Origin: a virus
Length of the DNA: 43,088 bases
Virus record (IMG/VR): IMGVR_UViG_3300045136_000164
Coordinates: 1-43,088 of that record
Strand: one strand, 5' to 3'
A program made the translations under genes and the position numbers. Shown piece by piece: positions 3,840-40,947 of this stretch. The notes under the pieces are model-generated. The model was not told the DNA's origin and did not search any database. It saw only the letters and a list, made by a program, of their open reading frames with translations. The stretch's first letter is position 1, and every line of letters begins with the position of its first letter.

Positions 3840-3910
3840 TCCCCTATCGTCTATCGGCAAGACTCCGGGCTTTGGACCCGGGAAAGGTGGTTCGAATCCA
3901 TCTAGGGGAA
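3840..3910 (+). tRNA. tRNA-Gln (anticodon TTG)
   Basis: A full cloverleaf can be drawn by eye: acceptor TCCCCTA 3840-3846 with TAGGGGA 3903-3909; D stem GTCT 3849-3852 with AGAC 3860-3863; anticodon stem CCGGG 3865-3869 with CCCGG 3877-3881 and loop CTTTGGA, anticodon TTG at 3872-3874; variable loop GAAA; T stem GGTGG/CCATC around TTCGAAT. The weak T-A first pair is typical of bacterial tRNA-Gln. The discriminator A is base 3910, CCA is not encoded, and 3910 is also the A of the ATG at 3910-3912. It reads CAA, a codon used unusually often in this GC-rich genome. Confidence 0.93.
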
Positions 3911-6973: not shown

Positions 6974-9481
6974 GTGGCGCCCCGGCCGAACTACCGCACG
7001 GTCCAAGAGTCGGCCCGGGCGCGCGTCGAAACGCTGGCGACCCGGGCGGCGGCGGAGATTGCCGCCGACTTGCGCCGCATGGCCGACCAACTGGCCGGCC
7101 GGCTGTCGGCGCTCCCCGGGGGCGCGGCCGGCCAACGGGCGGCGCTGGAAGCGTCCCGCCGCATCGTCGCGGCGTCGGCGGCGGACTTCGAACGCCGGGT
7201 GGCGGCGGCCACGGCCCGGGCCCGGGACCTGTCCTTTCAGGAAGTCCGGGACGTCTGGCTGGCCGCCCAACGCGCGGCCGTCCAAGCGGCCGGCATCCCC
7301 GGGGAGGCGTTGCCGGCGTGGCTGGATGGCGTCGGGGCGGTCGAGGGCGCCACGTTCGGCCGCGCGCTGGTCCCCCGGGTGACCATGGCGGCGGCGTACG
7401 CCCGCCTGTCGCCGGCCGCGACGTGGCAAACGGCCCTGAAGGGCCACACGGCGAACGCGGCGGCGGACTTGGACCGCATCGTCCGGGAGGGGATTCTGGG
7501 GGGCGCCGACCCCTTCGAACTCGCGCGCCGGCTCCGGCCCTACGTCCAAGGGGCGGAGTCGTTCGAACGCGCCTTCCCGAAGACGGACGACCGGTTCGCC
7601 CGGCTCCACGACTTGCGCGGCGTCCCGGCCGACCTGAAGGGCGCGGCCCGCCGGCTGAACTACAACGCCACCCGGATAGCCGTCACGGAGACGTGGAACG
7701 CCCGGGCGGAGGCCGAACTGGAAGCGTTCGCCGTGGACCCCATGGTGTACGCGGTGAAGTGGACGCTGGCCCCGAACCGGGGCGCCCTCCGGAAGCCGGA
7801 CGTGTGCGACGCCTACGCCGGGACCGACTGGTACGGGCTGGGGGTCGGCGTCTTCCCGCTGGACGCGGTCCCGCTCCCGCCCCACCCCTTCGACCGTTGC
7901 ACCCGCGTCCCGCTGCTCCGGTCCCCGAACGACTGGCGGAAGCCGAAGCCGGCCGGGCTCGCCCGGAAGCGCCAAGTCACAGACGCCGGCGGGTTGGCGT
8001 CGCCGTACCTGCTGCCCGAGCAACGCCTGTCCCCGGTGGACGTGGACGCCGTGAAAGCGGCCCTGACGCGCGGGTTCCGCCCCGGGAAGGTGGCGGACCC
8101 GGCGCGCGTGGCCATGTCGAAGCTGGTCACGGCCGGCGACGCGGCGGCGGTCGAACTCGCGGACGTCCTCGCGGGGGTCGAACTGCCGGTCCTCCCGGAC
8201 CCGGGCCCCATCGTGGACCCGGAACCGATTGTCCCGCCCCCGCCCCCGCCGGACCCGGTCGTGGTCGCGCCCACGCCGGCGCTCCCGCCCCCGGTGCCGG
8301 AACCGCCGGCGCTCCCCACGGACCCGCTGGACCGGGCGCTGGCGGAGGCGGCCGCCGTGCGCGCGAAGCTGGCCGAGTTCAAGGCGTTGACCGTGGAGGA
8401 GGCACTGGCCCTGCCGTCGGGCCCGCGCGGCCGGTCCCTCCGCGACAAGTTCGAATCCATCCGGACCCGGCTGGTCGAGGGCGAACGGGCCATCATGGCG
8501 GACCCCCGGTTCGCGGCCCGGGACGAACTGTGGACCAAGATGTTCCGGGCGGAGGCGGACACGTCCCAAGCGTTCGCCTACTGGAACCGGCTGGACCATC
8601 AAGTCGGGGACGCCAAGCGGGCCATTGCCCAGTACGGCCACGCCCACGGCCTGACCACGGAGGAAGTGGAGCTACTGAAGCGTCAGGCGGCGGAGGCGCT
8701 GGCGGAGTATCAAGAACTGTCCCGGTTCTCGACCCGGCTCCGCGCGGAATACACGGCGCTGGACCGGGCCCTAGAACCCCTCATTACGAAGGTGGACGCC
8801 CTCCGGGAGCGGCTCCGGAAGGTCGGGGCCGCCGGGACCGCCCGGGCCAAGGCGCTGGCGGAGGCCAGCCGGGCCAAGGGCCGCGCGCTGGTCGAACGGC
8901 CGGCGGCGGAGTGGGGGACGCTCGCCCCCGAGTTTTGGGCCGCGAAGGGCGGTCCGGCCGGGAGGGTGGACCCCCGGTTCGCGGCCAAGGCGGCCGAAGG
9001 GTTCGCGGCCTTTAACCGGATGGTCGGCAAGGTGGGCCACTCGCCGGTTCAACGGGTCATCCGGAAAGCCGGCCGCGCGAACGCCTCCGTCTTCGAAGGC
9101 GCCAACGGCCCGATTAACATGGCCCTGACCGACGGGGTCGGCGTCTGGGCCCACGAATTGTCCCACTTCTGGGAGTTCAACGAACCCGAAGTTTGGAAGG
9201 CGTCCCAGCGATTCCACGCGCGCCGGACCGCCGGCGAAAAGCTCCAAAAAATCTACCCCGGGTCCAAGGGCAAGATGGGGCGGGAAGTCGCCCGGTTCGA
9301 CAAGTACCGGAGCCCCTACGCCGGCAAGGAATACACGTTCAACAATGCGAACCGTGGGACTAACGAAATCGTGGCGATGGGCGTGCAATGGATGGTCGAG
9401 GACGCGGCCGCGTTCGCCCGGGAGGACCCGGACTATTTCGACTTCATCTTCGCCCTAATCCGCACCCGGACCGGCAAGTAG
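6974..9481 (+). CDS. MuF-type head morphogenesis protein fused to a zinc-metalloprotease-like domain (835 aa)
   Basis: Residues about 200-315 carry the MuF signature (TRIAVTETWNARAEAE; AVKWTLAPN from residue 260; VCDAYAG with C278; PPHPFDRCTRVPLL). A Pro-rich linker (about 405-453) separates a second half: a helical region (about 455-660) and a C-terminal domain with HELSH (H727, E728, H731), then GTNEIVAMG (E798, possible third ligand) and DPDYFDFIFALI. HExxH is the zincin motif. MuF proteins sit next to the portal and some are known to carry C-terminal effector domains injected with DNA; use of this one as a virion-delivered protease is inference. The start is GTG 6974; no better start exists near it. 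Confidence 0.85.
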   Translation: MAPRPNYRTVQESARARVETLATRAAAEIAADLRRMADQLAGRLSALPGGAAGQRAALEASRRIVAASAADFERRVAAATARARDLSFQEVRDVWLAAQRAAVQAAGIPGEALPAWLDGVGAVEGATFGRALVPRVTMAAAYARLSPAATWQTALKGHTANAAADLDRIVREGILGGADPFELARRLRPYVQGAESFERAFPKTDDRFARLHDLRGVPADLKGAARRLNYNATRIAVTETWNARAEAELEAFAVDPMVYAVKWTLAPNRGALRKPDVCDAYAGTDWYGLGVGVFPLDAVPLPPHPFDRCTRVPLLRSPNDWRKPKPAGLARKRQVTDAGGLASPYLLPEQRLSPVDVDAVKAALTRGFRPGKVADPARVAMSKLVTAGDAAAVELADVLAGVELPVLPDPGPIVDPEPIVPPPPPPDPVVVAPTPALPPPVPEPPALPTDPLDRALAEAAAVRAKLAEFKALTVEEALALPSGPRGRSLRDKFESIRTRLVEGERAIMADPRFAARDELWTKMFRAEADTSQAFAYWNRLDHQVGDAKRAIAQYGHAHGLTTEEVELLKRQAAEALAEYQELSRFSTRLRAEYTALDRALEPLITKVDALRERLRKVGAAGTARAKALAEASRAKGRALVERPAAEWGTLAPEFWAAKGGPAGRVDPRFAAKAAEGFAAFNRMVGKVGHSPVQRVIRKAGRANASVFEGANGPINMALTDGVGVWAHELSHFWEFNEPEVWKASQRFHARRTAGEKLQKIYPGSKGKMGREVARFDKYRSPYAGKEYTFNNANRGTNEIVAMGVQWMVEDAAAFAREDPDYFDFIFALIRTRTGK
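8797..8865 (+). repeat. 69-bp segment with a perfect inverted copy at 40833-40901
   Basis: Bases 8797-8865 (within the MuF-protease gene, coding LRERLRKVGAAGTARAKALA) are identical, as reverse complement, to 40833-40901. The match stops sharply at both ends. See the partner entry. Confidence 0.95.
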
Positions 9482-10207: not shown

Positions 10208-10220
10208 TTGCGGGCCCCCC

Positions 10221-10249
10221 TTGCGCGCAACCGGTGGGCGTGGTAGTAT
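10221..10249 (+). promoter_or_regulatory. Promoter with palindromic -35 (TTGCGCGCAA), spacer 17, TAGTAT
   Basis: TTGCGC 10221-10226 lies in the perfect 10-bp palindrome TTGCGCGCAA (10221-10230); TAGTAT is at 10244-10249. The bases TTGCGGGCCCCCC before it (10208-10220) also occur before the promoter at 40932. It drives the winged-helix gene at 10299. Confidence 0.85.
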
Positions 10250-10569: not shown

Positions 10570-10611
10570 TTGCGCGCTCCCCTTGCGCGCAATCTGGGGG
10601 CGGGGTAGTAT
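10570..10611 (+). promoter_or_regulatory. Promoter with two TTGCGCGC boxes; TTGCGC-17-TAGTAT
   Basis: The functional pair is TTGCGC 10583-10588 (within palindrome TTGCGCGCAA 10583-10592) and TAGTAT 10606-10611, spacer 17. A second TTGCGCGC begins 13 bp upstream at 10570, giving tandem boxes that could bind two regulator dimers on one face of the helix. It drives the gene at 10661. Confidence 0.82.
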
Positions 10612-17522: not shown

Positions 17523-19553
17523 ATGGCGAACCGCGCGCGGGTCCTACTGGAAATCGTCGGGAAGAATCTGGTGGGGCCCGCCGTCGCCGGCGCGAAGGCG
17601 GAACTGTCGGGCCTCCTGTCGTCCCTCTCGACCCTCCAAGGGGCGCTAGGGACCGCGATTTCGACCGCCGCTGTCGCGGCCGCGCTGGACCGGGCGTTCG
17701 ACGCCTCCGACAAGGCCGTCAAGTCGCTGACCCTGCTGGACGGGACGGCCAAGCTGACCGGGCTGTCGCTCCGGGACTTGGACGCGGCGGCCACGGACTT
17801 TCAAGCGAAGTTCGGGGTGTCGGCCGACACGGCCAGCGAGTTCGCGGCCCAACTGGGACGCCTGACCGCCAAGGCCGGCGACACGACGAAGCTCCGCGAC
17901 GCCATGGCGGCGTTCCTGAACCTTGCGGCCGCGCGCGGCTACTCCGCCCAAGAGGCGCTAACGGCCGTCTCCCAAGCGATTCTGGGCATTGACGAAGGGA
18001 CGGACAAGCTGTTCGGGAAGAACCCGTCCGTCATCTATGACGAATGGGCGAAGGCGGCCGGGACGACCGCCGGCAAGATGACCGACCAGCAAAAGGCGCT
18101 GGCCCTCCTGACGGCCGGCCTGACCGATGCCAAAAAGGTCGGGGACGCCTACGGGAAGATGCTGGAAACGACGGCCGGTATGTCCCAGAAGTGGGGGACG
18201 GAAATCGACCAACTGTTTGCGACCATCGGCCGCGCGCTCGACCCGCTCCGGCGGGCCTTCCTGTTCATGGCGACGGATACGGTCCGGGCCCTCCGCGAGT
18301 GGCTGACGTTCGCGGAGTTCACCACGGCCGCCTTCGTGGGGCTGGTGTCGGACTCCCTGACGCGGGTCCTGAACGCCGGGAAGTCGTTTGTGTCCCTCTG
18401 GGGGGACGTGTGGAACACGGCGCTGAACGTGGCCGGCGTCATCACGAACGACGAACTGAAAAAGCGGAATCTGGCCAGCTTCAAGTACCGCAAGGACTTG
18501 GAGGCGGAGACGCGCGCCGAACTGAAGGCGACCGCCGACGCGCTGGCGCAATACAACCGCGACCAACTGGGTATCAAGGACGGCCTGTCGGACAAGACGT
18601 CCCTTCCCGGGAAGACGCCCCCGCCGAAGGAAGACGACAAGGCCCGCGCGGCCCGGTACGCGGCGCTGACCGAAGCGGCGGACGTGGCGCTGGCGGCCCT
18701 GAAGATGGACAGCCTTCGCACGGAGGGGGTGCTGGCGGCGGTCGCGGCGGAGACGGCGCTGGCCAAGGTGCTGGAACGGGAAAACCTGTCGCTGGCGGAG
18801 AAGGTCCAACTGGAAGGGAAGTTGCTGGCGCTCCGCGAGGCCCGGCCGCTGGGGACCGGGAAGCCCCCGGGCATCATTTCGACCCCGGGGTGGTCCGACC
18901 CGAACGTGACGCCGAACCCGGCGGCCATGTCGGCTATCGAATTCAAGGAGCCCCAAGGGATTCGGGCGTTCCTCTTGCGGCTGGACGACACGGTCAGCCG
19001 GACCCGCCGGGGACTGGTGGGGCTCCGGGACGTGCTGGACGACATTGCGGTGGACGGACTGGGGGCCTTCCGGGACGCCACGGAAGGCGCCTTCGCGGCC
19101 GTGGTCGAGGGCTCCGCGTCCGCCGGCGACGCTATCGCCTCCGTCTTCGCCGGCGCCGTCCAGTCGGCCGCGCGCAAGGTGGGCGACTACTTCATGGCGC
19201 AAGCGATTGCGAACGCCACGGCCGCCTTCGGCGTCCCGCCCGTGCCGAACGCGGCCGTGGCCGCCGCCGGCTATCTGGCGGGCGCCACGGCCATGTACGC
19301 GGTCGCCGGCGCGGCCGGTGGGACGTCGCGTCGGCTGGGGGGCGGCGGGGGTGGGGGCGGCCAGTCGCTCCAACGGACCGACGGGTTCCGGGATAACTTC
19401 AACCTGCCCGGCACGAAGGGCGACGCGACCGTCAACATTGAAGGCGGCTTTCTCGACATGGGCGACCCGCGCCAGAGGGAAAGTCTCCGGAAGGCGCTGG
19501 AACAACTCTCTGGCCGCCGGGTGACCATCCGGGGCGACGTGGGGGGGGGCTAG
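17523..19553 (+). CDS. Tail tape measure protein (676 aa)
   Basis: ATG 17523, long helical protein after the chaperone pair. N-terminal LLEIVGKNLVGPAVAGAKAE and central long helices (LRDLDAAATDFQAKFGVSAD; LTAVSQAILGIDEGTDKL) match phage minor tail / tape measure proteins; hydrophobic stretches occur near residues 235-285 and 580-605, followed by a poly-Gly linker (GGGGGGGG near 610). At about 1.5 angstrom per residue it predicts a tail near 100 nm. The next gene starts two bases later. Confidence 0.88.
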   Translation: MANRARVLLEIVGKNLVGPAVAGAKAELSGLLSSLSTLQGALGTAISTAAVAAALDRAFDASDKAVKSLTLLDGTAKLTGLSLRDLDAAATDFQAKFGVSADTASEFAAQLGRLTAKAGDTTKLRDAMAAFLNLAAARGYSAQEALTAVSQAILGIDEGTDKLFGKNPSVIYDEWAKAAGTTAGKMTDQQKALALLTAGLTDAKKVGDAYGKMLETTAGMSQKWGTEIDQLFATIGRALDPLRRAFLFMATDTVRALREWLTFAEFTTAAFVGLVSDSLTRVLNAGKSFVSLWGDVWNTALNVAGVITNDELKKRNLASFKYRKDLEAETRAELKATADALAQYNRDQLGIKDGLSDKTSLPGKTPPPKEDDKARAARYAALTEAADVALAALKMDSLRTEGVLAAVAAETALAKVLERENLSLAEKVQLEGKLLALREARPLGTGKPPGIISTPGWSDPNVTPNPAAMSAIEFKEPQGIRAFLLRLDDTVSRTRRGLVGLRDVLDDIAVDGLGAFRDATEGAFAAVVEGSASAGDAIASVFAGAVQSAARKVGDYFMAQAIANATAAFGVPPVPNAAVAAAGYLAGATAMYAVAGAAGGTSRRLGGGGGGGGQSLQRTDGFRDNFNLPGTKGDATVNIEGGFLDMGDPRQRESLRKALEQLSGRRVTIRGDVGGG

Positions 19554-29448: not shown

Positions 29449-30801
29449 ATGGCGTTCAACGGCGCCGTGTCGTGGCAGACGGCGGGCGCCGGTAATGGGC
29501 CCTCCACTACGGGCCTGACGGCGCTGGACCTGACCGGCTCCTGTACGTGGGCGTGGTGGTATCGCGGGACGAAGCAAATTGACGTGGTCGTCCATTCGGA
29601 CAACACGAATGGATACCTTATCCGGATGCGGCCGGCGCTGGGGGACTTCCAGCTTCGCTTGACGGCCGCGTCAGTCAGCACGTCGTACGGCCCGCCCGCC
29701 GGGCCCCGGCCGGTCGCGCCGAACCAGTGGCGGCACTACGCCATCGTGTACGACGCGACGGCGGCCGTCATCCTGTTCTACGTGGACGGCCGCCACTTGG
29801 CGACGGTGGCCCGGACGGGTGGCGCTCCCGCGACCCCGACGGCCGCGACCACGCGCATCCTGAACGACGCCGGCACCCCGACGGCCGGGACCGTCGGCCG
29901 GATGTTCGACCTTCAGGTCTTCAACGGGCTGGCGCTGGGTCAGGCGGAAATCTGGCGCCTTATCGACCCGACCCGGACGAACTGGACGGCCACGGCCCGC
30001 TTTGCCCGGTCGTGGGCGAACCCGGGCGTCTCCGGGACCATCCGGGACGAATCCCTGAACGGCTGGGGCCTGACGGCGACCGCCAACCCGGGCGGGTACG
30101 ACGTGTGCGAGTCGCCCGACTGGACCCGCGTGGCCGGCCGGTTCACGTCGCGGCGCGGCGGCATCGGCGCCCCGGCCGCCGGGGCGCCCATCGTGGCCAC
30201 CGGGGCCGCCGGCGCGGCGGGCGTGGCGGTCCTGTCGGTCCGGCGTCGGGCGACCGCCACCGGGGCGGCCTCCGCCGCCGGGACGGCGACGCTCCAAGTC
30301 CGCCGCTCCCTGTTCGGCGTGGGGTCCGCGTCGGCGGTCGGCACGGCCAGTCTCCGCGTCCTCCGGTCCCTGTTCGCCACCGGGGCGGCCTCCGCCGCCG
30401 GGACGGCGACGCTCCGGGCCGGCAATCCCATGACGGCCACTGGGGCGGGCTCCGCCGCCGGCACGGCCAGTCTCCGCGTCCTCCGGTCGCTGGCGGCCGC
30501 CTCCGCCGCGTCCGCCGCCGGCACGGCCAGTCTCCGCGTCGTGCGGGCCCTCGCGGCCGCCGGCGCGGCCTCCGCCGTGGGAACGGCCGTCGCGGCGGTC
30601 CGCCGGCGCCTGACGGCCACCGGGGCGGGCTCCGCCGCCGGCACGGCGACCTTCTCCGCCACGTATCTTCCCGCGAACCTGTCGGCGGACCTGTCGGTCC
30701 TCCCGGCCCTGTCGGCCGACCCGGAGACGACGCTGGCGCTGGGGGGTGGACTGGACGACCCCCAACCGGCCTTGTCGGCCGCGCCCATCATCTTCCAGTA
30801 G
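29449..30801 (+). CDS. Lectin-like (LamG/ConA) receptor-binding protein with eight 20-aa repeats (450 aa)
   Basis: ATG 29449. Residues about 1-190 look like a LamG/concanavalin-type jelly roll: SCTWAWWYRGTKQIDVVV, then WRHYAIVYDATAAVILFYVD and GRMFDLQVFNGLALGQAEIW. From residue 250, eight 20-residue repeats of the type ATGAASAAGTATLxVRRSL follow (30196-30675), then a Ser/Ala/Leu tail. Lectin domain plus regular repeats suggests a sugar-binding head on an elongated stalk; repeat fold is unknown. It would bind the host surface. Confidence 0.78.
   Translation: MAFNGAVSWQTAGAGNGPSTTGLTALDLTGSCTWAWWYRGTKQIDVVVHSDNTNGYLIRMRPALGDFQLRLTAASVSTSYGPPAGPRPVAPNQWRHYAIVYDATAAVILFYVDGRHLATVARTGGAPATPTAATTRILNDAGTPTAGTVGRMFDLQVFNGLALGQAEIWRLIDPTRTNWTATARFARSWANPGVSGTIRDESLNGWGLTATANPGGYDVCESPDWTRVAGRFTSRRGGIGAPAAGAPIVATGAAGAAGVAVLSVRRRATATGAASAAGTATLQVRRSLFGVGSASAVGTASLRVLRSLFATGAASAAGTATLRAGNPMTATGAGSAAGTASLRVLRSLAAASAASAAGTASLRVVRALAAAGAASAVGTAVAAVRRRLTATGAGSAAGTATFSATYLPANLSADLSVLPALSADPETTLALGGGLDDPQPALSAAPIIFQ
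30196..30675 (+). repeat. Eight in-frame 60-bp repeats (20 residues each)
   Basis: Units start at 30196 and every 60 bp; the core ACCGGGGCGGCCTCCGCC and GGCACGGCCAGTCTCCGCGT stretches recur with some identical copies. The conserved protein core is (A/G)xGSAxGTAxL. Near-identical adjacent units suggest recent expansion or homogenisation. Confidence 0.9.
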
Positions 30802-30809
30802 GGGACCCC

Positions 30810-31130
30810 ATGGCCGCCACCAACATTCCATCGTTCACGGCCCCCCGGGCCACGTCGCTGGCCGTCCGCCTCCGCCGCCTTCGGAATCTGGTGGCCGGGA
30901 CAGACGGAACCGGCGCTACGGTCGTGATGACCCTTCGGGACGCGGCCGGCGCGGCCGTCACCAACGCGACGGCGCTTCCCCTGACGCTGGTCGCGGGGAC
31001 CGTGGCCGACTACGCCGGCGTCATCCCCGGGACCCTGACGGTCACGGTGGGCGCTCCGTACCTGCTGGAAGTGACCGCCACGGTCGGCGGATACACCCGC
31101 CTGTGGCCGGTCCGGGTCGTCTTCGCCTGA
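30810..31130 (+). CDS. Small strand-rich virion protein (106 aa)
   Basis: ATG 30810. N-terminal APRATSLAVRLRRLRNLVA is followed by a beta sandwich pattern (VVMTLRDAAGAAVTNATALP; VTVGAPYLLEVTATVGGYTR) ending in WPVRVVFA, like small BppU-type or Ig-like fibre adaptor domains. Last gene of the structural block. Confidence 0.7.
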   Translation: MAATNIPSFTAPRATSLAVRLRRLRNLVAGTDGTGATVVMTLRDAAGAAVTNATALPLTLVAGTVADYAGVIPGTLTVTVGAPYLLEVTATVGGYTRLWPVRVVFA

Positions 31131-31137
31131 GTCCGCG

Positions 31138-31160
31138 AACCCGCCGGCGTCGCGCGGGTT
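31138..31160 (+). terminator. Hairpin after the last structural gene
   Basis: AACCCGC 31138-31144 pairs with GCGGGTT 31154-31160 over a 9-base loop, 8 bases after the last structural stop. No T-run. A terminator role is inferred from position. Confidence 0.5.
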
Positions 31161-31194
31161 GCCCGGAATCGCGTGACGGATGACCGGCGCGCAA

Positions 31195-31310
31195 GGCGAA
31201 ACGATGCAATGGAGGGTGCAAAGCATCTGCAATGCACAAGCAATGCATATGCATATAAAGTAAAGAAAGATAAAGAGAAGCAACAACAACCCGGCCAATT
31301 GTAACGAAAT
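31195..31310 (+). other. AT-rich island with short repeats, candidate replication origin
   Basis: About 115 bases are conspicuously A/T-rich in a roughly 70% GC genome. The left part has GCAATG repeats (TGCAATG 31205, TGCAATGCA 31228, GCAATGCAT 31240) and two ATGCAT palindromes (31243, 31249). The right part has TAAAG repeats (31256, 31261, 31271) and purine-rich DNA. It lies between the structural and replication blocks. Iterons plus an easily melted tract are typical of phage origins; an attachment or regulatory site is an alternative. Confidence 0.5.
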
Positions 31311-31321
31311 CGCGGGCCGCC

Positions 31322-31350
31322 TTGCGCGCAACGCATGGGAGCGGTAATCT
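31322..31350 (+). promoter_or_regulatory. Promoter of the early region, palindromic -35, TTGCGC-17-TAATCT
   Basis: TTGCGC 31322-31327 in TTGCGCGCAA (31322-31331); TAATCT 31345-31350; spacer 17. Directly downstream of the AT-rich island and upstream of the DUF932 gene. Expected start about 31357. Confidence 0.82.
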
Positions 31351-31356
31351 CACGGC

Positions 31357-31377
31357 GTCGGGGGATTGACCCCTGAC
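31357..31377 (+). ncRNA. 5'-terminal mRNA hairpin, different sequence
   Basis: GTCGGGGG 31357-31364 pairs with CCCCTGAC 31370-31377 (one G-T pair) around loop ATTGA. It starts at the expected transcription start. Same stem-loop shape as at 10258 but unrelated sequence. Confidence 0.65.
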
Positions 31378-31403
31378 ACTCACCCAATCCTGAGGCCCGA
31401 CCC

Positions 31404-32477
31404 ATGGCACACAAACCCGACCGCAACACGGAAACCGGCACCGCCACTGTCTCCTCCGTCCTTCAGGATATGTGGCACCGCGAAGGTCACGTCATTTCGG
31501 ACGCGCCGTCGCGCGAGGCCGCCCAGAAGCGCGCCGGCCACGACTTCACGGTGAAGCTCTACCCGATGGCCGTGGAACTCCCGACCGACGACGGCGCGGG
31601 CACCTTCACCCGCCGCGTGGACGGGTCGTTCGCCACGGTTCGCACGGACCGGAACACGGTGCTGGGGGTCGTCGGCCCGGACTACCAGCCCCTTCAGAAC
31701 GACGACGCCTTCGCCGTGCTGGACCCGATGCTGGACGCCGGCCTGTTGACCCTGACCACGGCCGGGACGTTCCGGGGCGGCCGGGACGTCTGGATGCAAG
31801 GCGAGTTTGTGGCGGAGAAGCTGGGCCCCAAGGCGTCGGCGTTCTTCACGTCGGAGGGGATTCGCCCCTACGTGCTGGTGTTGAACAACCACGCCGGCCG
31901 CCGCGCGGCCACGGTCCACTTCACCCCGGTCCGGGTCGTGTGCGCGAACACGCTCCGCGCGGCGCTGGCCCACTTCGGGACCGCCCTGAAGACGGGCAAC
32001 GCGGCCCGCGTCCGCCACACGAAGAACGTGGCCGCGAATCTGGCCGGCGCCACGGCCGGGCTGGTGGCCGCCAGGGGGCTGGCCGACGGGTTCGAAACGG
32101 TCGCGGCGGACTTCCTGACGCTCCGGAACTTCACCCTGAGCCCGGACCAGTTCCGGAAGCTGGTGCTGGACGTGGTCGCACCGGACCCGCGCGACTCCGC
32201 GAAGTTCAACGCCAAGTCCCGGAAGGCCGATTCGTCGGTGGCCCGCGCCGCCGCGCGCCGCACGGAATTGACCCGCCTGTGGACCGACGGCGCTGGCCAC
32301 ACGGGCGACCTGTCCGCGTGGGAGGCGTGGAACGGCGTGGTGGAGGCGCTGGACCACGACGCGGCCGGCCTCTGGCCGACGCGCGGGGAAGACGGCCGCA
32401 TCGCCTCCGAGTTCGGCGGCGCCATCGGGACCGCCAAGACGGACAGCCTTCGCGCCCTGCTGGCGGCCGCGCGCTAG
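31404..32477 (+). CDS. DUF932 / phage-plasmid-like protein (357 aa)
   Basis: ATG 31404 follows AATCCTGAGG (31386-31395) by 8 bases. The motifs LGVVGPDYQPLQNDDAFAVL, VLNNHAGRRAATVHFTPVRV and VCANTLRAAL are the hallmarks of the DUF932 (TIGR03299) family found in phages and plasmids. The biochemical role of the family is not established; it is often near early or defence/regulatory genes and may be abundant. Here it is the first early gene. Confidence 0.88.
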   Translation: MAHKPDRNTETGTATVSSVLQDMWHREGHVISDAPSREAAQKRAGHDFTVKLYPMAVELPTDDGAGTFTRRVDGSFATVRTDRNTVLGVVGPDYQPLQNDDAFAVLDPMLDAGLLTLTTAGTFRGGRDVWMQGEFVAEKLGPKASAFFTSEGIRPYVLVLNNHAGRRAATVHFTPVRVVCANTLRAALAHFGTALKTGNAARVRHTKNVAANLAGATAGLVAARGLADGFETVAADFLTLRNFTLSPDQFRKLVLDVVAPDPRDSAKFNAKSRKADSSVARAAARRTELTRLWTDGAGHTGDLSAWEAWNGVVEALDHDAAGLWPTRGEDGRIASEFGGAIGTAKTDSLRALLAAAR

Positions 32478-32597: not shown

Positions 32598-32897
32598 ATG
32601 CCCGCCCGCCGCACCCGTCGCCGTTCCCGTCCCGCCGCGTCCCTTGCCGACACGCCGGCGCCCACCGGTATCCTCTCCCGGCTGGCCATGGAAACGGGCC
32701 GGTCGGAGTCGCACCTGTCCCGGGTCATCCGGGGCGAGCGGGTGTCCAAGGCCCTGACGGCCGAAATTGAGACGGCCGCCGGCCGGCCCATTGCCGAAAT
32801 CCGGGAGCAACTGGCCCGCGACGGCGTGGACCGGGCCGTGGCGTCCGCCCAACGGGCCGGCGTGAACGTCTCCGTGGCCGTCACGCCCGCGCCGTAG
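32598..32897 (+). CDS. HTH regulator, Cro/repressor-like (99 aa)
   Basis: ATG 32598. A basic N-terminal tail (ARRTRRRSR) precedes a helix-turn-helix of the lambda-repressor type: ILSRLAMETGRSESHLSRVI, then RGERVSKALTAEIETAAG. A C-terminal helix and strand (ASAQRAGVNVSVAV) may dimerise it. It is a good candidate for binding the TGCGCGCA operators, including the one in its own promoter. No cleavage (LexA-like) domain, so if the phage is temperate this alone is not proof. Confidence 0.78.
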   Translation: MPARRTRRRSRPAASLADTPAPTGILSRLAMETGRSESHLSRVIRGERVSKALTAEIETAAGRPIAEIREQLARDGVDRAVASAQRAGVNVSVAVTPAP

Positions 32898-35415: not shown

Positions 35416-36255
35416 ATGGCCCGCACGAAGAACCCCGCGCCGAGCGGGGAGGGCGGCGAACTTCCGGAGTCCCTGCGCTACTTCCCGTTCTACGCGGCGG
35501 AGTGGCTGACCGCCCCCGCCATCCGGGTCCTTCCGGCCGCCGCGCGCGGCGCCCTCGCGGACCTGTTGGCGTGGTCGTGGCGTCACGACGATTGCGCCTT
35601 GCCCGGGGATGACGCCACGCTGGCCCGGCTGGGCGGCCTGTCGCCGGCGGAGTGGGACGCGGTCGGCCCACTGGTCCGGGTCCTGTTGCCGGCGATTGCC
35701 GGCGACCCGGCCGGCCGGGTGCGGTCCCCGGTCCTGTTCGCCCGCTGGAAGTATGCGCGCGAGTCGTACGAAGCCCGCCGGGGCGCGGCGGCCGCGCGGT
35801 GGGGCCAGCAACGGCCCGCGCCGGGCCAGAATGGCCCCGTGGCGGGCGCGCGGGACGTGGTCGCGGCCATGTTGGCCGCCCGACCGGCGCTGGCCGCGTG
35901 GGCGGCCGCCGGCGACGTGCGCCGGGCCCTACTGGACGCGCTCGCGGACACCATGGGCGCCCCGCCTGTGGTCACGGAGGCGCTGGCCGACTTGGACGCG
36001 CGCATCCAAGGGATGTACGGCGCCGTGGACCCGGCCGCCGTGGCGGACGCGGTCGCGGACTATCTGGCCAAGCATCACGGCCGCGCCGGCGGCCTCTCCG
36101 CCTTCCGGACCTTCCTGAACGCCACGAAATCGCGCGGGCTCCGGGCGCGACCCGCGACCCGCGAGAACCCCGCCCTGTTGGGCCAGTCTGGCGCGGCGCT
36201 CGCGCGCAAGTACCTTGACGGTGGCCCTTCGACCCTTCCGGAGACTGACGAATGA
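35416..36255 (+). CDS. DUF1376-type replication protein (279 aa)
   Basis: ATG 35416 abuts the previous stop. N-terminal YFPFYAAEWLTAPAIRVLPA, then ARGALADLLAWSW, DCALPGDDATLARLGGLSPA and EWDAV match the DUF1376 family, which is common immediately before DnaC-like loaders and probably acts as an origin-binding or primosome protein. The C-terminal half is helical. Overlaps the loader by four bases (ATGA). Confidence 0.82.
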   Translation: MARTKNPAPSGEGGELPESLRYFPFYAAEWLTAPAIRVLPAAARGALADLLAWSWRHDDCALPGDDATLARLGGLSPAEWDAVGPLVRVLLPAIAGDPAGRVRSPVLFARWKYARESYEARRGAAAARWGQQRPAPGQNGPVAGARDVVAAMLAARPALAAWAAAGDVRRALLDALADTMGAPPVVTEALADLDARIQGMYGAVDPAAVADAVADYLAKHHGRAGGLSAFRTFLNATKSRGLRARPATRENPALLGQSGAALARKYLDGGPSTLPETDE

Positions 36256-37079
36256 CGTCCCTTACTACGGTCCTGCCGGCCGACCCGCCCGTCCGCGCGT
36301 GCCGGTGCGGCGCCCCGCTGGTCGGCGTGGCCATCCCCGATGCCGCCGTGCGCGTCCTCTATCCGACCCAATGCGGCCGGTGTCAGGCCGCCGCCGATGC
36401 CGCCGCCGCCGCCGCCACGGCTCGCCCCAAGGCCGCCCGGGTCCTCCGGGTCCCGGCCCGGTACGCGGAGGCGTCGCTGGCGAACTTCCCGCCGCGCCTG
36501 TCGCCGGCTGCCGGCCGCGAACCGGCCCACGACCCCGCCACGACGAACTCCCGCGACACGGTGGCCAGCCGATACGCCCGCTTGCACCAACTGGCCGTCC
36601 GGTACTGTGGGAACTGGGAGGCGCACCGGGCGCCGGCGACGCGGTTCCCGGCCGTCGTGCTGCTACTGGGCTCGCCCGGGAGTGGGAAGACGTGGCTGGC
36701 GTACGCCATGGCGCGCGCCATCGCGGAGACGACCGGGGACGTCGCGGTCGCCCTGACCCTGTCGGCCGCCGTAAAGGGGATTCGGGAGACGTGGCGGAAG
36801 GACCATCCGACGACGGAGCGCGCGGCCCTCGCGCGCCTGACCCGGCCGCCCCTGCTGGTGCTGGATGACGTCTCGCGCCACGCCTTCACGGGCGACCCGT
36901 GGGGTCACCTGTTCGACATTCTGGCGGAGCGGGAAAGCGAGTTGCGCCCGACCATCATCACGTCGAACGAACCGATGCCCGTCCTCGCGGAGTTTCTGGG
37001 CGCTCCCATCCTGTCCCGCGCCGCCGGCAACGTCTGGACCTTCCCGTCGGTGGACCTTCGCATGGAGGCGACCCCGTGA
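36252..37079 (+). CDS. DnaC-like helicase loader, AAA+ ATPase (275 aa)
   Basis: ATG 36252 overlaps the previous stop. N-terminal zinc ribbon (CRCG about residue 18, CGRC about 41), then RVPARYAEASLANFPPRL typical of DnaC/DnaI, Walker A GSPGSGKT (140-147), Walker B LLVLDDVS with D205/D206, and sensor-like IITSNEP. It would load the host replicative helicase at the phage origin, consistent with no phage helicase or polymerase. Confidence 0.88.
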   Translation: MTSLTTVLPADPPVRACRCGAPLVGVAIPDAAVRVLYPTQCGRCQAAADAAAAAATARPKAARVLRVPARYAEASLANFPPRLSPAAGREPAHDPATTNSRDTVASRYARLHQLAVRYCGNWEAHRAPATRFPAVVLLLGSPGSGKTWLAYAMARAIAETTGDVAVALTLSAAVKGIRETWRKDHPTTERAALARLTRPPLLVLDDVSRHAFTGDPWGHLFDILAERESELRPTIITSNEPMPVLAEFLGAPILSRAAGNVWTFPSVDLRMEATP

Positions 37080-40324: not shown

Positions 40325-40947
40325 CCGCCCCCGACCTGACCCCGGAGGACGTCCCGCCGTTCGTCCCGGTGCCGGTGCCCGGGGCCCATGGGGCGCCCGT
40401 CATGGACGACCGCCAGTTGGACATTCTGGGCGTCCCCGGCGTGGCCCCGGCGCTCCCGCCGGCGCCGCCCGGGCTGTCTCGCTCCGAACTCGCGGACCGG
40501 GTACTGGTGCGCCTGTTCCGCCACGGGGAGGCGCCCCCGACCCGGAAGGAACTGAAGGACGCCTACCCGTTCGGGGACCGCAAGGGCTGGCCGTACAAGG
40601 CGTGGCTGTCGCGCGTCCAGTCGTGGCGGCAAGCCCACGGCGCCGGCTATATCGCCCCGGCCCCGAAGCGAAAGCGGCGGCCGCCCCGGAAGCCCCACCC
40701 GGACCTTCCGTTGCCGGGCCTGACGAACGCCGGCGCCCTCTTGCCGACGCCCCGGAAGCCCCACCCGGACCTTCCGTTGCCGGGCCTGACGAACGCCGGC
40801 GCCCTCTTGCCGACGCCCCGGAAGCCCCGGCCGCCTCCGCCAGCGCCTTGGCCCGGGCGGTCCCGGCGGCCCCGACCTTCCGGAGCCGCTCCCGGAGGGC
40901 GCCCCGCCGGCGGGGTAATTGCGGGCCCCCCTTGCGCGCAAGCGTAA
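40321..40947 (+). CDS. Protein with a helical domain and a rearranged, Pro-rich C-terminus (208 aa)
   Basis: ATG 40321 overlaps the previous stop (CGATGA). Residues about 48-110 form a conserved-looking domain (LSRSELADRVLVRLFRHGEA; YPFGDRKGWPYKAWLSRVQS; AHGAGYIAP). Two identical 22-residue repeats follow (RKPHPDLPLPGL...), then about 23 residues translated from the 69-bp inverted copy of the MuF gene, and an end that runs through the promoter at 40932 to TAA 40945-40947. The native C-terminus has probably been replaced. Unassigned. Confidence 0.68.
   Translation: MTAPDLTPEDVPPFVPVPVPGAHGAPVMDDRQLDILGVPGVAPALPPAPPGLSRSELADRVLVRLFRHGEAPPTRKELKDAYPFGDRKGWPYKAWLSRVQSWRQAHGAGYIAPAPKRKRRPPRKPHPDLPLPGLTNAGALLPTPRKPHPDLPLPGLTNAGALLPTPRKPRPPPPAPWPGRSRRPRPSGAAPGGRPAGGVIAGPPCAQA
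40684..40828 (+). repeat. 66-bp tandem duplication plus partial third copy
   Basis: Two complete 66-bp units (starting at 40684 and 40750) are followed by about 13 bp of a third. They are in frame and add 22 residues per copy. The partial third copy runs straight into the inverted 69-bp segment. Confidence 0.93.
40833..40901 (-). repeat. 69-bp inverted copy of part of the MuF-protease gene
   Basis: Perfect reverse complement of 8797-8865, about 32 kb away. Flanks differ at once on both sides (only CCGG is shared near one junction). It codes a new Pro/Arg-rich tail on the gene at 40321. Confidence 0.95.

Follow-up and report, generated by a model that had tools for sequence, protein, structure and literature searches.

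A phage that encodes both an initiator and a helicase loader needs an origin of replication, and phage origins of this type combine repeats with an AT-rich element. The origin of lambda is reported to consist of repeats and an AT-rich element located inside gene O (PMC7466680). For SPP1, two origins about 13 kb apart are described, of which oriL lies inside the initiator gene, gene 38, and oriR is the exception; the strongest AT islands of that phage are found in transcription-control regions as well as at origins (PMC6316719). The Rac prophage is described as having an active origin, oriJ (PMC3945230). A different kind of recurrent element, SAS/ESAS of the cluster K mycobacteriophages, is described as a short motif that precedes the starts of many genes, often with an inverted repeat upstream.

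We compared with these systems an AT-rich island in an unclassified, very GC-rich phage. The window analyzed is the whole virus record, 43,088 bases with 73.0% GC, an IMG/VR entry that carries no completeness estimate, and in our own gene list all its plausible genes are on the + strand. At the sequence level the locus consists of an AT-rich, unstable, and apparently noncoding core, a repeat that frames it, and a promoter-like module to the right of the core. We read this as a composite early control region whose core is the phage origin, opened by a DUF1376-like protein together with a DnaC-like loader, and give that reading a probability of roughly 45%. The island is the best, though not a proven, origin candidate of this record.

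Composition and short repeats of the AT-rich block

The earlier note had proposed as a candidate origin a 115-base A/T-rich block in a GC-rich genome, and such a block is indeed there, at positions 31199 to 31313 (no strand assigned). With 40.9% GC it is the lowest-GC 115-mer of the window (z of about -6); the second-lowest has 56.5% GC, and the lowest across 60 first-order Markov simulations had about 52.2% GC. The least stable 50- and 100-base duplexes of the window, by nearest-neighbor energy, also sit in the block (z of 5.4 and 5.2, respectively), which makes it a candidate unwinding region with the AT-rich unwinding element of a theta origin of the lambda/SPP1 type. The gap between genes that holds the block is 58.6% GC overall, and the 22 other gaps of more than 60 bases in our gene list, some of which probably contain uncalled genes, have 60.9 to 80.6% GC. 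Since those gaps are not AT-rich, an intergenic position is insufficient as an explanation of the composition. When 71 further loci, each 10 kb or longer, were compared, one (L148) had a more extreme GC minimum. There, a comparable block at positions 9066 to 9180 has 27.8% GC in a 66% GC contig (an Acetobacteraceae MAG) and precedes a terminase gene by no more than 1 kb.

The window holds no second copy of the island, and the words shared with it are at the chance level (for k=9, 11 versus 11.0). For the same reason a partial copy considered near positions 9361 to 9392, within a gene, was dropped. GC skew across the window was flat and too weak to be informative on the origin position, no DnaA-box or IHF consensus was found in the window, and an Rfam search returned one match, at chance level.

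The short motifs listed earlier are present where they were claimed to be: GCAATG at 31206, 31229, and 31240, ATGCAT at 31243 and 31249, and TAAAG at 31256, 31261, and 31271. Words resembling TGCAATG, possible initiator sites on the + strand (31205 to 31256), begin at 31205, 31217, 31228, 31239, and 31250, that is, in steps of 12, 11, 11, and 11 bases. The self-match at lag 11, judged against dinucleotide shuffles and corrected for picking the best lag among 5 to 30, gave a P value of 0.0375 for positions 31201 to 31262 and of 0.10 when the entire island was taken. No 7-mer family exceeded the shuffle range (P = 0.36 for the largest), and the number of 6-base palindromes was unexceptional (P = 0.09). 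Allowing one mismatch, TGCAATG occurs 4 times versus 0.84 expected (P = 0.006), a value that refers to a word chosen after sight of the sequence. The words described earlier are thus present, but as iterons they are statistically weak, and on the P values for phasing and for the best 7-mer family an iteron-bearing block is no more than possible.

The words are followed by an A-rich purine tract on the + strand (31257 to 31289), a possible melting element. Its score of 17.5 is the best of the window, but 30 random versions of the window reach up to 19. By the same score the lambda origin ranks second in its genome, and the BcepMigl initiator gene lies outside the top six A-rich tracts of the stretch searched. 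In view of the random versions and the two phage controls, the tract is nondiagnostic as a mark of an origin, and so is its likeness to the A-rich tract of lambda.

The recurrent promoter-like module and the framing repeat

Immediately to the right of the block stands one copy of a module that recurs in the window. The layout is TTGCGC, 16 to 17 bases, TAnnnT, a leader hairpin, and usually CCTGAGG ahead of a start codon. Six clear copies are present on the + strand (at 10221, 10583, 31322, 33607, 40932, and 42635), and weaker module-like sites on the same strand were seen at 2690, 9509, 32542, 34944, and 38598. Two components of the module are in excess: the palindrome TTGCGCGCAA has 6 exact and 4 one-mismatch sites versus 1.28 expected, and the start-associated motif AACCCTGAGG, with up to one mismatch allowed, has 10 sites versus 1.78 expected. 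A motif of the latter kind precedes the start codon in five of the six copies, the exception being 33607. The leader following each of the six is predicted to fold into a hairpin, and the hairpin sequence GCCGGCGTGGTGCCGGC is identical among four of them. In three modules the palindrome is preceded, at a distance of 13 bases, by a second half-site, TTGCGSGC (10208 to 10215, 10570 to 10577, and 40919 to 40926), hinting at tandem operator sites.

The copy next to the block comprises, all on the + strand, a predicted early promoter at 31322 to 31350 (TTGCGC at 31322 to 31327, a 17-base spacer, and TAATCT at 31345 to 31350), the palindrome at 31322 to 31331, a predicted leader hairpin at 31357 to 31377, and AATCCTGAGG, a copy of AACCCTGAGG with 1 mismatch, at 31386 to 31395. 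A matrix constructed without this copy ranked it sixth among all positions on both strands (score of 18.5; next, 13.7), and the only five sites above it were the copies used to build the matrix. A scan for the standard sigma-70 consensus (TTGACA/TATAAT) returned no promoter in this half of the window, so the claim of a promoter family rests on recurrence and on placement before genes. The palindromic promoter already proposed at 31322 is therefore retained, as a predicted promoter belonging to the phage's own recurrent module, its palindrome being one of the 10 exact or one-mismatch sites.

The block is enclosed by a perfect 12-base inverted repeat (12 of 12 positions complementary), with a left arm at 31187 to 31198 on the - strand and a right arm at 31318 to 31329 on the + strand, the latter overlapping the promoter palindrome. 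Perfect inverted pairs of 12 bases with a gap of at most 150 bases number four in the window, of which three are independent. The left arm matches the module core, CCTTGCGCGC, which occurs 9 times in the window versus 0.4 expected. Seven of these occurrences are on the + strand and belong to modules or module-like sites; the remaining two are on the - strand. One of the two is the left arm, which is not promoter-like (promoter score of -1.5); the other is a solitary site within a late gene (19170 to 19179). The GCGCGC centers of the two arms are 137 bp apart; with 10.5 bp to a turn this amounts to about 13.05 turns, which is only suggestive of helical phasing. The framing repeat and the recurrent module, neither of which the earlier note had described, are firmer than the iterons.

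Neighboring genes, relatives, and competing explanations

Upstream of the block, the last late ORF (stop at 31130) is followed by a hairpin at 31138 to 31160 on the + strand, a 7-base perfect inverted repeat (31138 to 31144 and 31154 to 31160) with no T-run, which may act as a terminator. The first gene after the promoter, at 31404 to 32477 on the + strand, encodes a DUF932/TIGR03299 protein (Pfam, 120.9 bits; NCBIfam TIGR03299, 153.7 versus a cutoff of 110.7 bits). The titles and opening lines of abstracts on DUF932 contained no functional lead. A 99-residue ORF at 32598 to 32897 resembles, on visual inspection, a small helix-turn-helix protein; it matched nothing in Pfam and is a candidate for the protein binding the recurrent palindrome.

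The genes from which an origin had been expected are a helicase loader and a DUF1376 gene. The former is well supported (DnaC-like, 36252 to 37079, + strand; phrog_50, E value of 6.4e-29; IstB_IS21, 45.7 bits), whereas the latter, at 35416 to 36255 on the + strand, scores below the Pfam cutoff (24.0 versus 30.1 bits) and can be called only DUF1376-like. The predicted structure of its product is of low confidence (mean pLDDT of 51), and we treat it as a candidate initiator. No DnaB was detected among the products of the phage. The block lies outside this gene, about 4 kb before it. The gene itself is in 75 to 79% GC sequence and holds only paired short repeats, with no AT-rich stretch, tandem repeats, or obvious origin signature. 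A literature search for DUF1376 together with a phage origin of replication found no paper. Elsewhere in the window we observed a tRNA-Gln(ttg) at 3840 to 3910, immediately before the terminase large subunit ORF, imperfect 60/120-base repeats at 30252 to 30650 in an ORF with a lectin-like (Laminin_G_3) match, and a 66-base perfect tandem repeat of 2.2 copies at 40682 to 40828.

In the collections searched, the phage is without a close relative. The terminase search was confirmed for 422 of 441 viral contigs, the best 80 of the 422 being at most 50% identical, and for 10 of 34 matches in bacterial genomes (at most 47% identity); for the coat protein, 61 of 75 were confirmed, with the best segments 21 to 36% identical. 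None of the pattern stretches was confirmed for the DUF932 protein (0 of 2), the DUF1376-like protein (0 of 5), or the helicase loader (0 of 4). A looser module pattern matched two viral contigs, which were taken as chance because neither gave a tblastn match to the 44 listed ORFs of the window (2 of them misframed) and because their sequence is unlike the module. A stricter module pattern had no match in genome contigs, nor did the leader-hairpin and island-core patterns in viral contigs, and no copy of the island was found in phages, plasmids, or viral contigs, in collections that may omit records very near the window's own. Among 32 records chosen from the fetched loci, 7 matched DUF932, 5 of them over the cutoff. 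The lowest-GC 115-mer of the stretch retrieved was within about 300 bases upstream of the inferred DUF932 start in one of the five (L156) and was not in the other four distant records, which gives no support to this arrangement as a conserved one.

If the core is the origin, the DUF1376-like product or another early protein would bind the TGCAATG-like words in the left half of the core, the A-rich tract to their right would melt, and the product of the gene at 36252 would load the host DnaB helicase, so that theta-type replication would start beside an active early promoter. A putative protein that recognizes CCTTGCGCGC at the recurrent promoters would bind the core at its two ends and might in this way link early transcription with the opening of the origin. 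We favor this reading because the block is unique in composition and lowest in duplex stability, because neither the other gaps nor the stretches upstream of the other modules are AT-rich, and because a loader gene is present and DnaB was not found. Nor does the DUF1376-like gene itself contain tandem repeats or an AT-rich stretch. The order of repeats and then AT tract, with weak 11-base phasing, may also be counted in its favor, as it resembles known phage origins. It is weakened by repeats barely beyond chance, the flat GC skew, the absence of DnaA-box and IHF consensus sequences, and the lack of a relative showing the element conserved, as well as by the low score and distance of the candidate initiator and by the four DUF932 records with their lowest-GC stretch elsewhere. 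The record may moreover be incomplete, so the origin could lie outside it. The proposal of a replication origin made in the earlier note is thus partly supported, as the best single reading of a unique, unstable, apparently noncoding block in a phage with a loader; its iterons are weak, and the adjoining promoter with its operator-like palindrome could by itself explain the block.

The main rival explanation, which we consider somewhat less probable, is that the core is only regulatory DNA upstream of the early promoter and that the origin has another location, such as within or close to the DUF1376-like gene. The core might then provide a UP-like contact, a bendable spacer between operators 137 bp apart, or the target of a putative host AT silencer. 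The block does abut a recurrent promoter module and has a copy of the module core at each end, the two in inverted orientation, and the AT islands of SPP1 (PMC6316719) present the same ambiguity, as they occur in regions of both types. In Corynebacterium, an AT-rich dip is reported to mark silencer-bound promoters. The lambda origin sits inside its initiator gene. However, upstream of the ten other module or module-like sites the AT content is 16 to 30%, versus 56% at this locus, so this promoter family works without an AT-rich stretch. The core, furthermore, exceeds a UP element in length, and an origin signature is not obvious in the DUF1376-like gene.

We regard as unlikely a stricter form of the origin reading, in which the inverted promoter sites flank the melting core in helical phase and one regulator loops or gates transcription and replication together. 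Still less probable is a small inserted element (MITE-like or otherwise foreign) whose AT-rich core is bounded by terminal inverted repeats of 12 bases and which came to lie beside the promoter without serving any function itself. The perfect repeats lie exactly at the composition boundaries, the composition is foreign to the genome, and matches between island and window are at chance only, but no target-site duplication is visible by eye in the flanks, the phages, plasmids, and viral contigs searched hold no copies, and the arms match the promoter core of the phage itself, so that their sequence is explained without a transposon. Palindrome-bearing, noncoding DNA where the late and early gene blocks meet would suit a site for packaging or site-specific recombination (att, cos, or pac), but such a site is highly improbable, since no tyrosine or serine recombinase (PF00589, PF00239) matched in the record, which also disfavors the attachment site that had been named as the alternative to an origin, and the terminase genes are about 28 kb distant on the record.

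Comparison with known systems

Taken as an origin within an early control region, the element is ordinary in kind, and its operator-framed layout is the interesting part. A defined region of origin and promoter would give a handle on the start of replication in a phage that combines very high GC content and a DnaC-type loader. Should the framing operators also work at the origin, the control of promoters and that of replication would be linked through a single recurring site.

As in lambda, in which repeats lie on one side and an A-rich tract on the other, the possible repeats here stand beside an A-rich tract in the early region, and genes for a candidate initiator and a loader follow downstream on that strand. 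Unlike lambda, in which four annotated 18-base iterons lie inside the initiator gene, the locus has short and weak repeats. The likeness to oriL and oriR of SPP1, which have direct repeats accompanied by an AT-rich unwinding element, lies in possible repeats beside a candidate unwinding region. The differences are that the SPP1 repeats are bound by gp38, whereas the sites here are putative, and that this record lacks a second copy of the island. The ydaU-ydaV genes of Rac are the same type of pair, a DUF1376 gene and one for an ATP-binding protein. In ydaU, visual inspection showed repeated TGTTCAAACA-like words, and the gene also holds an ATAAAG array; both would be compatible with an origin within ydaU. 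Those words lie inside the DUF1376 gene, whereas the AT-rich block here is outside the DUF1376-like gene. With SAS/ESAS the module shares, in layout only, a motif at gene starts that is mostly in one orientation; the sequence is another, and here the motif is part of modules made up of promoter, hairpin, and motif.
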